From an uncultured Rikenellaceae bacterium (GTDB taxonomy: Bacteria > Bacteroidota > Bacteroidia > Bacteroidales > Rikenellaceae), in NCBI GenBank assembly GCA_947040435.1, contig CAMRBL010000003.1, positions 1 to 64,000 of the forward strand: a stretch of 64,000 nt of DNA, read 5' to 3'. The position numbers and the translations under genes are program-made. Below are positions 29,049-32,122 of the stretch, piece by piece (the first letter of the stretch is position 1; every line of letters starts with the position of its first letter). The notes beneath the pieces are model-generated. The model had not been told where the DNA came from. It did not search any database and saw nothing but the letters and a program-made list of their open reading frames with translations.

Positions 29049-29720
29049 TTAGCCCATAGAGTTCATTCTTATACTTGCCTTTATGAATGCAAGAGCTCTA
29101 ATGCGTGACATTTCAACATCTTTGTCGGCATGATACTGGTTTTGACTAACTAACTTGACAAAACCATCTTTGTCCGACTTCTGGATATACTTTACTGTGA
29201 CATACTCCTCGCCATCTATATCGATAGAGAGAAGGTACATGTCGCCCCAGAAAACATCTTCAATGTTGTTAATCTTCTTGTACAGAATAATGTCACCACT
29301 CTTTAGTAGTGGGTACATGCTATCTCCTACAATGTAGATTGCGCCGTCGCATTTTGGAAGGTTTGGTATGTGAATATAGTCGATGGGTTCAGCATTAGAT
29401 GAGTCCATGAAGAGTGGAATCAATCCAGCTGTTCCCTCGATGTTGTAGAGTGGAACACTCTGTAATGGGAGTGTATTCTCTCTACCCCGCTTGAAAGTGA
29501 CAACATCCTTAGGTGCATTAAGCATGTCGCCAGTGCCATTTTCGATCCAGTCAGGGTTGACGTTCAAATCTTGAACTAGTATGTTTTTATTTCGTTCAGA
29601 TAAGGAGGCTTTGCCTGTTTCTATCATAGATAATGCACTTTTACCTATTCCTAGGTGTTTTGCAAACACTTCTTGTGTCATGCCCAACTCCTTGCGTAGT
29701 AGCTTAATACGTGTCCTCAT
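29049..29720 (-). CDS. XRE-family/S24 (LexA/CI-like) phage-type repressor
   Basis: HTH LGMTQEVFAKHLGIGKSALSMIETG; S24 Ser motif GDSMYPLLKSGD and Lys in YVTVKYIQK; AG site in GTAGLIP. Confidence 0.88.
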   Translation of the reverse strand: MRTRIKLLRKELGMTQEVFAKHLGIGKSALSMIETGKASLSERNKNILVQDLNVNPDWIENGTGDMLNAPKDVVTFKRGRENTLPLQSVPLYNIEGTAGLIPLFMDSSNAEPIDYIHIPNLPKCDGAIYIVGDSMYPLLKSGDIILYKKINNIEDVFWGDMYLLSIDIDGEEYVTVKYIQKSDKDGFVKLVSQNQYHADKDVEMSRIRALAFIKASIRMNSMG

Positions 29721-29753
29721 AAATTTTATATGTAATTTTATTCAATTTTTTAC

Positions 29754-29783
29754 TTGGAAATACAATAATTGAATGTATCTTTG
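29754..29783 (+). promoter_or_regulatory. Putative Bacteroidetes promoter divergent from the repressor
   Basis: TTG (29754-29756), 19 nt spacer, TATCTTTG (29776-29783). Confidence 0.45.
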
Positions 29784-29899
29784 TGGTGTAAAGTTAATAT
29801 TTTTACTCTAATTACACAACATTCTTCTTATAAATATATAAACATTTATTATGCCACCTTATACGCTTATATGTTAAAATAATTATACAAAATCTTATT

Positions 29900-30202
29900 A
29901 TGCTAATAATAACAGATAAAATTTACAAAGCTATTGCCGATCAGTTGGTAGTAGATATAGATCAAAAATACTTCTTTTCAGGCTCAATTGAGTTCGATAC
30001 AGAAGAGTTATATTCAACTTTTACAACCTCTGTTATTATTGATAAAAAGAGGATTGTAGTGACTGAGGGCGTATATGACGTATTTGAAGATATAATCCCT
30101 GTATGGTGGGAGTTTAAAACATATCAACGGGAAGGTGAGGTGTATAATACATTCTCGTGGCAGGAGTTTAAAGAGTTCTTGCCAATAAATAGAATTGAAT
30201 AG
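29900..30202 (+). CDS. Hypothetical protein (100 aa)
   Basis: ORF starting MLIITDKIYKAIADQLVVDI, acidic, downstream of a plausible promoter; family not recognised. Confidence 0.6.
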   Translation: MLIITDKIYKAIADQLVVDIDQKYFFSGSIEFDTEELYSTFTTSVIIDKKRIVVTEGVYDVFEDIIPVWWEFKTYQREGEVYNTFSWQEFKEFLPINRIE

Positions 30203-30257
30203 ATCGCAATTCGTTGAATGATTGACTATAAAATCTTATATATATATAATCATATCT

Positions 30258-30528
30258 AGGTTAGTGGTGGAGCACGATGAATTATTTTATTATATCTGGG
30301 GACGCTCCTATAAATTCAAGTAAAATACTCTTTAATTTTATCATAGTCCTTAACCTTTGATTCTCCATGAGAAATGGTGTTGACAAAGGCTAAAGAGTCT
30401 CCTCTTAGTTCGAGGGTGGAGATTTGTAATATGTTTAAACTTATTAGAGAGTAAATTGTGGTGTATTTCAAAATCCTACCTTTGAGGACGCTCAGCAGAA
30501 CCCACAACGCTCCACCACAAAGTAACCT
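30258..30528. repeat. ~270 bp segment bounded by imperfect inverted repeats
   Basis: aggttagtggtggagc (30258-30273) versus gctccaccacaaagtaacct (30509-30528). Confidence 0.45.
30455..30484 (+). promoter_or_regulatory. Putative promoter for terminase gene
   Basis: ATTG (30455-30458), 18 nt spacer, TACCTTTG (30477-30484). Confidence 0.45.
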
Positions 30529-30545
30529 ATCCAATAATTTATTAA

Positions 30546-31985
30546 ATGTGTAAAACTAAAAGAGAAGAAATAGCTTTTCAACACTACATTGAACAGGTTG
30601 CCCCATACCTGCAGTCAACAAAATTCCATAAGTCCTATTATAGAGTTTTGGAGGCATTCGCCTCTAGGAAAATAAAAAAATTAATCGTTTCAATACCTCC
30701 GCAACATGGTAAATCCCTTGGTGCGTCAGTACTACTACCTGCCTATATGCTCGGCTTAAATCCTGAGTTAAGAGTGGCGATAGCATCTTATAGTGGTACA
30801 CTGGCAAATAGATTTAACCGAAGAGTACAGAGATTGATCGACTCAAAGGAGTACACTGAGCTATTTCCGCAAACAACAATTAAAAGTCTGAAAAATAGAT
30901 CTGCTAACTCTGTGAATTATATCCGTACCGCAGATCAAGTGGAGATTATTGGATACAACGGTGAGTTGATGAGTGTAGGGAGAGAGGGGTCGCTGACGGG
31001 AAATCAAGTAGATATCTTTATACTAGATGACCTATATAAAGATGCAATGGAGGCAAACTCCCCAACTATTAGAGAGAATTGTTGGGAGTGGTACACATCG
31101 GTTGTTAAAACCAGAATGCATAATACTTCTTCGGAGTTAATAGTATTTACTAGATGGCATGAGGAGGATTTGATTGGCAAGCTAACATCCATTGAACCGA
31201 CAATTGAATTAACCGATTGGAAACAGATTAAAAAGGGGTTTAAAGGGTGGTATCTGCTGAATTTTGAGGCGATAAAAGAGGGTGAGCCATATCAAATAGA
31301 TCCACGAAAAGTTGGAGCTCCACTCTGGCGTGAACGGCATAACCTTGAGCTATTAAAAGAGAAACAGAACTTAGATCCAGTAAGATTCTCATGTATGTAC
31401 CAAGGTAAACCATCCTCTGCTCACGGGTTGTTGTATGGTAATAGTTTTATTACCTATGCTGCATTGCCAACAGATATTATTAAATTAGGGAACTATACAG
31501 ATACAGCAGATGCTGGTGATGACTACCTATGTTCAATATCTTATCAGGTAGATCGTGCGGGGTTGATATACATAACGGATCTTGTATACTCGCGTGAACC
31601 TATGGAGAAGACCGAACCAATGGTAGCAAATATGATTAATAGCTCTAAAACTAGAGTCGTCGCAGTAGAGAGTAACAACGGAGGAAAGGGATTTGCTAGA
31701 GCTGTTGCTCGATTGACGCCAATGGCAAAAATAGAGTGGTTTCACCAGAGTGGAAATAAAGAGGCTAGAATAATATCAAACTCATCAACGGTTATGACAT
31801 ATATTAGGATGCCGCTAGATTGGAGAGTGAGATGGAGTGATCTATACAATCACATCACAAACTATAAACGTGAGTACCATGCCAATAGGTGGCATGATGC
31901 GCCTGATGTATTGACGGGCATTGTTGAGAGAGAGGTTGTTGATACTATAACTAAACGAATTAAAGCTATAAGATTCTCAGGATAA
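30546..31985 (+). CDS. Phage terminase large subunit
   Basis: Walker A-like SIPPQHGKS, Walker B DIFILDD, RNase H-like nuclease residues (TDTADAGDD, VESNNGG, HDAPD). Confidence 0.88.
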   Translation: MCKTKREEIAFQHYIEQVAPYLQSTKFHKSYYRVLEAFASRKIKKLIVSIPPQHGKSLGASVLLPAYMLGLNPELRVAIASYSGTLANRFNRRVQRLIDSKEYTELFPQTTIKSLKNRSANSVNYIRTADQVEIIGYNGELMSVGREGSLTGNQVDIFILDDLYKDAMEANSPTIRENCWEWYTSVVKTRMHNTSSELIVFTRWHEEDLIGKLTSIEPTIELTDWKQIKKGFKGWYLLNFEAIKEGEPYQIDPRKVGAPLWRERHNLELLKEKQNLDPVRFSCMYQGKPSSAHGLLYGNSFITYAALPTDIIKLGNYTDTADAGDDYLCSISYQVDRAGLIYITDLVYSREPMEKTEPMVANMINSSKTRVVAVESNNGGKGFARAVARLTPMAKIEWFHQSGNKEARIISNSSTVMTYIRMPLDWRVRWSDLYNHITNYKREYHANRWHDAPDVLTGIVEREVVDTITKRIKAIRFSG

Positions 31986-32036
31986 TGAATCCTCAAAAAA
32001 AAATTATTAATAAAAGCTATATAATATTTAATATAA

Positions 32037-32105
32037 AAAATGCATCTAAGAGCGTTTGTAGTCTAGTTAAATAAACTAGAGAACCATCGCTCTTAGATGC
32101 ATTTT
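32037..32105. terminator. Bidirectional terminator between terminase and upp
   Basis: Perfect 18 bp stem aaaatgcatctaagagcg / cgctcttagatgcatttt with nested tctagtt/aactaga. Confidence 0.8.
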
Positions 32106-32122
32106 ATATTTAGAGGTACTTA

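Follow-up and report, generated by a model that had tools for sequence, protein, structure and literature searches.

What does an intact phage terminase do on a bacterial chromosome when no head gene stands beside it? The question is raised by a 64,000-nucleotide stretch of DNA, here called the window, from contig C3 of a 2.2-Mb Rikenellaceae metagenome-assembled genome (MAG) that is 84.6% complete. A preliminary description had recognised, between rpmH and upp, a repressor (R), a small protein (S), a structured spacer and an intact terminase large subunit (TerL, gene T), all of which are indeed present (Table 1), and had called the cassette an orphan. This name is wrong because the genome also encodes portal, capsid, head protease and connector at another place; the accompanying statement that portal and capsid are not visible is correct for the window, whereas genome-wide both are found on another contig. 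We argue here, at a probability of roughly 0.78, that the cassette forms the regulatory and packaging part of a viriform resembling gene transfer agents (GTAs), domesticated once near the base of the Rikenellaceae and then split on the chromosome.

Table 1. Positions of the cassette features in the window, of the head operon and of related spacers
Feature	Position	Strand	Remarks
R, CI/LexA-like repressor (HTH and S24 peptidase)	29049..29720	-	Pfam, PHROGs
Probable R operator, variant of palindrome TTCAAnnnTTGAA	29755..29779	.	Palindrome precedes S promoter in Rikenellaceae
Probable S promoter, Bacteroidota-type -7 box (TAnnTTTG), TATCTTTG	29776..29783	+	
S, protein of about 100 aa (100 aa here)	29900..30202	+	Conserved in the family; divergent from R
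Structured leader/spacer before terL, 343 nt	30203..30545	+	Single copy in genome
Long-range helix, 5' arm	30261..30273	+	Pairs with 30509-30521
First GACG-loop hairpin	30298..30307	+	
Second GACG-loop hairpin (TTGAG-GACG-CTCAG)	30482..30495	+	
Long-range helix, 3' arm	30509..30521	+	Pairs with 30261-30273
T, terminase large subunit (TerL), 479 aa	30546..31985	+	Pfam, PHROGs
Long inverted repeat, 36-nt arms, 86% complementary	32033..32109	.	Between convergent terL and upp
Head operon of the window's genome	C20:6391-14690		h18, h3, h0, protease, capsid, h6, portal, connector
Other spacers with GACG hairpins	L033, L034, L046, L143, L144, L146, L147, L148, L154, L157, L158, L174		

The cassette and its control

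TerL matches the Pfam model Terminase_6N (E = 2.6e-9) and phrog_38 of PHROGs (E = 5e-82), which confirms its assignment. The residues that had been read as intact are 98-100% conserved across 111 members, namely K56 of Walker A, D161/D162 of Walker B and D319, D322, E375, D451 and D454 of the nuclease. All 31 genomes with TerL among 61 searched come from one family of the order, which named genome records (Alistipes, Tidjanibacter, rumen and gut MAGs) identify as the Rikenellaceae and in which TerL (E ≤ 1e-100) is found in 224 of 250 genomes, almost always as a single copy, and in 106 of the 110 good ones. R, S and TerL occur jointly in 77 of 80 independent named loci of the family, which bears out their co-occurrence and their grouping as one unit. 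One strain with the cassette is Alistipes montrealensis kh20 (L181). The host genes flanking the cassette vary between most genera, and some are common (uracil-DNA glycosylase upstream; an AraC-like regulator, a bioA-like and a purD-like gene downstream; names assigned by inspecting the sequences), the pattern that vertical inheritance combined with rearrangement predicts. Downstream of terL, the inverted repeat probably acts as a bidirectional terminator that closes the module before the convergent upp.

The small terminase (TerS) is absent from the cassette of the window's species. A TerS-like gene is recognised in the cassettes of some genera only and is missing from most cassettes read; a single tested TerS9 member aligns with phrog_309 (E = 9.5e-8) across residues 81-148 and has no Pfam HTH match. 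TerS without a DNA-binding domain is a common trait of GTAs (PMC11841831).

R matches HTH_3 (E = 1.6e-11) and Peptidase_S24 (E = 2.4e-11) in Pfam and a PHROG repressor (E = 2.5e-30). Across 100 family sequences, both residues of the dyad (S134, 94%; K177, 95%) and the cleavage-type motif A98-G99 (93% and 97%, respectively) are kept, and R is thus predicted to be a cleavable repressor of the CI/LexA type, with Ser/Lys dyad and Ala-Gly site retained. The consensus of the Bacteroidota -7 box is TAnnTTTG, and in 28 family loci such a box in the S promoter is immediately preceded by the palindrome TTCAAnnnTTGAA. The window's copy of this palindrome is the top match in 64 kb, scoring 19.4 versus 11.4 for the runner-up.

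The same candidate operator occurs upstream of the head operon, exactly in G028, with mismatches in G009 and as the variant AGTTAAAATATTTAACT in the window's genus, so that exact or variant copies are found there in four genomes of two genera (g9; variant in g1). It is missing upstream of the head operon in most other genera tested, and direct control of the head operon by R is therefore supported only in part; R may act directly through the operator-like sites in some genera. In the promoter of the head operon, a -35-like TTGACAA occupies the loop of an inverted repeat, the stems of which covary from genome to genome (L126, L127, L128, L138). In the window's genus, a TATATTTG box before the operon is directly followed by a strong terminator-like hairpin (L123:5740-5777, G000:C20), which is conserved in the sister species and may instead terminate the upstream gene. 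We rejected a promoter-proximal terminator as a family-wide antitermination control, as the arrangement was found in the window's genus only.

S has no family match in Pfam or PHROGs and is conserved throughout the family, with P67, W69 and W70 invariant in 46 sequences. Structure prediction yields a confident alpha-beta-beta-beta-alpha model, and this fold finds no match in the PDB or BFVD at E ≤ 0.001. Judging by position and conservation alone, we propose that S could be an intermediate regulator that targets either late genes or the terL hairpin leader.

This leader, the spacer between S and terL, is more stably folded than shuffled sequences (z = -2.74), and the sister species preserves its stems, with a compensatory double change from C-G to T-A in the long-range helix. 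Paired GGACGC motifs are present in twelve further Rikenellaceae spacers. Over all spacers, both flanking pairs can be formed at 27 of 29 such sites versus 15% of 624 control sites, and three pairs at 19 of the 29 versus 6% of controls; the sites are phylogenetically related, hence we attach no formal probability to these counts. Paired hairpins with an invariant GACG loop and covarying stems are seen in the window and in the twelve loci of Table 1. Other Alistipes (L145, L153, L155, L166) have a different spacer hairpin with the loop CGATGC or CGATAC, complementary to CGCATCG or CGTATCG downstream, a possible pseudoknot.

No known RNA family matched the spacer, and GACG hairpins are absent near the head operon of the window's genome. 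An attC-like site was dismissed on account of the wrong orientation and the single copy, and the latter also speaks against a MITE or other repeated element. Nor does the spacer replace TerS: the order in L046 is S, two hairpins, a TerS-like gene and T, and because the hairpins precede both packaging genes, we regard the spacer as their leader.

The head operon on a second contig

Downstream of T, two genera (G014/G033 and G008/G027) encode a ClpP-like head protease, a capsid-like protein, a portal and a connector. Cassette and head operon are contiguous only in the two deepest genera. Where one contig holds both, TerL and portal are 3.4-4.1 kb apart in basal genera and 11 to 216 kb apart in the others. 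In the window's genome the operon lies on C20 and is followed by infC on the other strand, and the known loci total about 11 kb (2.9 + 8.3 kb).

The portal matches a PBSX-type portal model at E = 3e-17 and the protease an NCBIfam model of ClpP-related head maturation proteases at E = 1e-28, both below the curated cut-off; some members, for instance the genus of G009/G028 and L267, have a short or unrecognised protease. The AlphaFold model of a capsid homologue from IMG/VR (L266; mean pLDDT 77) matches HK97-fold capsids of phages and satellites, among them the RcGTA capsid (6tb9), with E-values of about 1e-8 to 1e-10 and modest TM-scores, and an HK97-like fold is predicted for the capsid of the head operon.

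In several genera, a holin gene (PF05105) and an endolysin-like gene follow portal and connector; the endolysin is called from sequence features and position and has no match in Pfam. Holin and endolysin genes were not found next to the head operon in the window's genus, and the endolysin query gave no match in the window's genome. Among the operon's proteins, h9, h3 and h0 are tail-tip-like, and some phage contigs carry weak relatives of h3 and h0 next to T and a putative tape-measure gene. Unlike related phages, the Rikenellaceae operons have no tape-measure-like gene between h0 and the protease, and the tail may therefore be very short, absent or encoded elsewhere. At G027:C2:346000-362000 (L058/L434), the head genes are reordered and separated by GC-rich repeats, as if the operon had been broken up by them.

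Models of the portal and the capsid of these two T-linked genera each give one strong match in 29 of 37 family genomes, the identical set for both, and one genome has a second, weak portal match. All 29 fall within the 31 TerL-positive genomes; of the two remaining, one is 54% complete and the other carries a decayed T. Fisher tests, uncorrected for relatedness, give 1.2e-5 for TerL and portal and 2.6e-8 for portal and capsid. Among 147 Bacteroidales genomes outside the Rikenellaceae, none has the portal at E ≤ 1e-40, and one genome of another family has a distant, phage-like portal match at 7e-26.

Selection and descent

Between G000 and G001, whose dS of about 0.8-1.8 is partly saturated, dN/dS amounts to 0.015 for R, 0.034 for TerL, 0.031 for the portal and 0.060 for the capsid, similar to the host genes topA (0.039), upp (0.045) and thrS (0.042). 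Purifying selection on these four genes is thus housekeeping-like, and neither neutral drift of TerL nor presence in only one strain, both of which the preliminary description had named as findings that would speak against it, is observed.

Quick maximum-likelihood trees share 11 (TerL), 10 (portal) and 13 (capsid) of 23-24 splits with the topA tree, compared with at most 3 in 1000 label shuffles. The correlation between the patristic distances of TerL and capsid is weak (r = 0.24) and inside the shuffle range, though their splits agree. The genera with contiguous genes are basal, and intact genes are missing from a later clade (g10, g12, g15, g21), in which a decayed T persists in one member. 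Stop codons interrupt TerL in L054 (G007:C33), L059 and L060, by possible local decay or assembly error, and the G026 portal likewise carries one stop. Such stops and the loss of the system from one clade count against a GTA, as do the weak distance correlation, the missing tape-measure-like gene, the fast evolution of the minor head-operon genes and, in the window's species, a cassette free of TerS and a head operon with no lysis genes beside it.

A probable GTA-like element and its alternatives

The ICTV definition of GTAs (PMC9662315) has six features, of which three describe the particles (mostly random host DNA as cargo, a head too small to hold the GTA loci, and delivery of DNA to other cells). 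The other three can be recognised here, from genes alone: proteins derived from caudoviricetes (TerL, portal, ClpP-like protease, HK97-like capsid and holin), full endogenization over multiple loci (C3 and C20 in the window's genome), and mostly vertical inheritance with co-diversification with the host, as seen in the splits shared with topA. Of the three origins considered in the preliminary description, a domesticated DNA-processing system comes closest to this picture; a prophage remnant and a satellite fail because the genes are single-copy across the family, vertically inherited and under housekeeping-like selection, with no integrase seen in the cassettes or head clusters read.

Heads and motor might instead be conserved for a use other than transfer, such as DNA disposal, altruistic lysis or interference with infecting phages through a competing terminase and capsid, with any DNA delivery incidental. 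The evidence is one of sequence only and includes no certain receptor-binding or tape-measure gene, and a prophage on contig C84 of the window's genome carries a related TerL and is a possible target of interference. However, capsid, portal, protease and connector, in several genera together with holin and endolysin, are retained together, which is what a particle that delivers DNA would require. PADLOC, moreover, gives only generic HTH matches to R and none to S or TerL, so that no defence model fits the latter two and we rejected a known anti-phage defence system. We consider a non-transfer use unlikely.

A phage satellite that is still mobile, or a prophage family of unusual frequency, would account for the phage-type repressor and promoter arrangement and for the phage relatives of TerL. 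The nearest of these is the TerL of the C84 prophage (59% identical), followed by uncultured contigs (53%) and Bacteroides fragilis phages (47%). The latter, B40-8 and B124-14, are probable relatives of the packaging module and, unlike the cassette, autonomous phages. C84 (L063, G000:C84) appears to be a true prophage; besides TerL it encodes a ParB/methyltransferase-like protein, a TerS-like protein and an unrelated portal-like protein. Against mobility, no integrase or replication gene was seen, by family or homology, in the R-S-TerL cassettes or head clusters read; the genes occupy two separate loci, are single-copy in about 90% of the family and have trees congruent with that of the host. 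Apart from short contigs resembling the same loci, no closely related free phage has this portal or capsid. Mobility is on these grounds very improbable.

A search of 50,697 phage records with the portal gave no full-length relative. In IMG/VR, uncultured tailed phages such as L274 share the order protease-capsid-h6-portal-connector, with portals 32-35% identical; L274 has a tape-measure gene just upstream (PhageMin_Tail, E = 1.4e-33) that is missing in the Rikenellaceae operons. Close portal matches in 'viral' contigs (L262-L268) are short pieces with the same gene order as the head operon, and the virus-listed IMG/VR or GenBank contigs L262-L268 and L422-L425 resemble pieces of host-encoded head operons. 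Two faecal contigs listed in GenBank as 'Bacteriophage sp.', MT838805 and MT838736, carry parts of the head operon; one of them runs on into a comEC-like gene and is therefore probably host DNA. This competence gene directly follows the portal, connector, holin and endolysin genes (L424:1775-3253, MT838805), an adjacency that may be due to chance. In known GTAs, DNA uptake genes serve the recipients.

It is also conceivable that R, S and TerL were recruited alone for host DNA processing, the head operon being an independent relic. In favour of this, cassette and heads are not linked in most genera, conservation is highest in TerL and R, and the minor genes of the head operon evolve faster (dN/dS 0.12-0.36 between G000 and G001). 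Portal and capsid, however, are constrained like TerL, presence and loss coincide, the modules are contiguous in deep genera, and an operator-like palindrome is common to both loci in g9, with a variant in g1, which leaves separate recruitment highly doubtful. A decaying prophage remnant, to which copies that are truncated or interrupted in G007, G006 and G015 would point, is scarcely credible in light of dN/dS values of 0.03 at near-saturated dS, catalytic residues conserved at 98-100% and family-wide presence, and for the window's cassette the dN/dS and the family-wide presence refute it.

If cassette and head operon together form a GTA-like viriform, it is probably SOS-inducible. DNA damage would activate RecA, R would cleave itself, and the divergent promoter would then fire S and TerL. 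The head operon would be switched on either by R, directly at operator-like sites in some genera, or by S, the putative intermediate regulator of late genes or of the terL leader. TerL would dock on the portal and pump host DNA into small heads; as most cassettes read lack TerS, sequence preference would be slight or absent. A fraction of the cells would lyse and release particles that bring host DNA to relatives. Our confidence in each regulatory step is lower than in a domesticated particle function. The full scheme, a Bacteroidota GTA switched by the SOS response, with TerS-free packaging in most of the family and with S, whose fold matches none known, and the GACG leader as a dedicated switch from repressor release to packaging, is speculative, and we offer it tentatively.

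RcGTA is regulated by host systems and is not known to be under an S24 repressor of its own. Like the Rikenellaceae system, RcGTA and the Rhodogtaviriformidae are derived from caudoviricetes, co-diversify with their hosts, have scattered loci and possess an HK97-fold capsid (PMC9662315); they differ in phylum and origin, and RcGTA encodes a TerS, albeit one that lacks a DNA-binding domain (PMC11841831). FpGTA, from Faecalibacterium prausnitzii (PMC12946183), is likewise a domesticated phage in a gut anaerobe. It has TerS/TerL, portal and capsid in one operon of ~10 kb and further genes in a second locus, which in one genome lies ~125 kb away, with no visible tails and with lysis genes in a separate operon (PMC12946183). 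FpGTA belongs to a different phylum and its particles have been seen experimentally, whereas the Rikenellaceae system is known from its genes and is likened to it by organisation. Unlike in FpGTA, TerL and repressor are split from the heads, an S24 repressor stands beside TerL, and TerS is frequently absent. In three donors, a long-read survey of packaged faecal DNA named no Rikenellaceae among the GTA producers despite the family's abundance (PMC12946183); this argues against frequent production, which, if it occurs, must be conditional or rare. With three features recognised and no Rikenellaceae producer named in that survey, we use the term GTA-like viriform.

Few GTAs are known, and in the literature searched none is named in the Bacteroidota, a dominant phylum of the animal gut. 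Our full-text search, whose scope left out most subscription journals and preprints, found none in the Rikenellaceae or other Bacteroidota, and a GTA-like system in this phylum is apparently new to that literature. A family-wide element explains the phage-labelled database contigs that resemble host loci. If the GTA-like reading is true, the system would represent a further independent exaptation of a tailed phage, family-wide and selected in Alistipes and its relatives, and may provide a route of gene exchange among abundant commensals.
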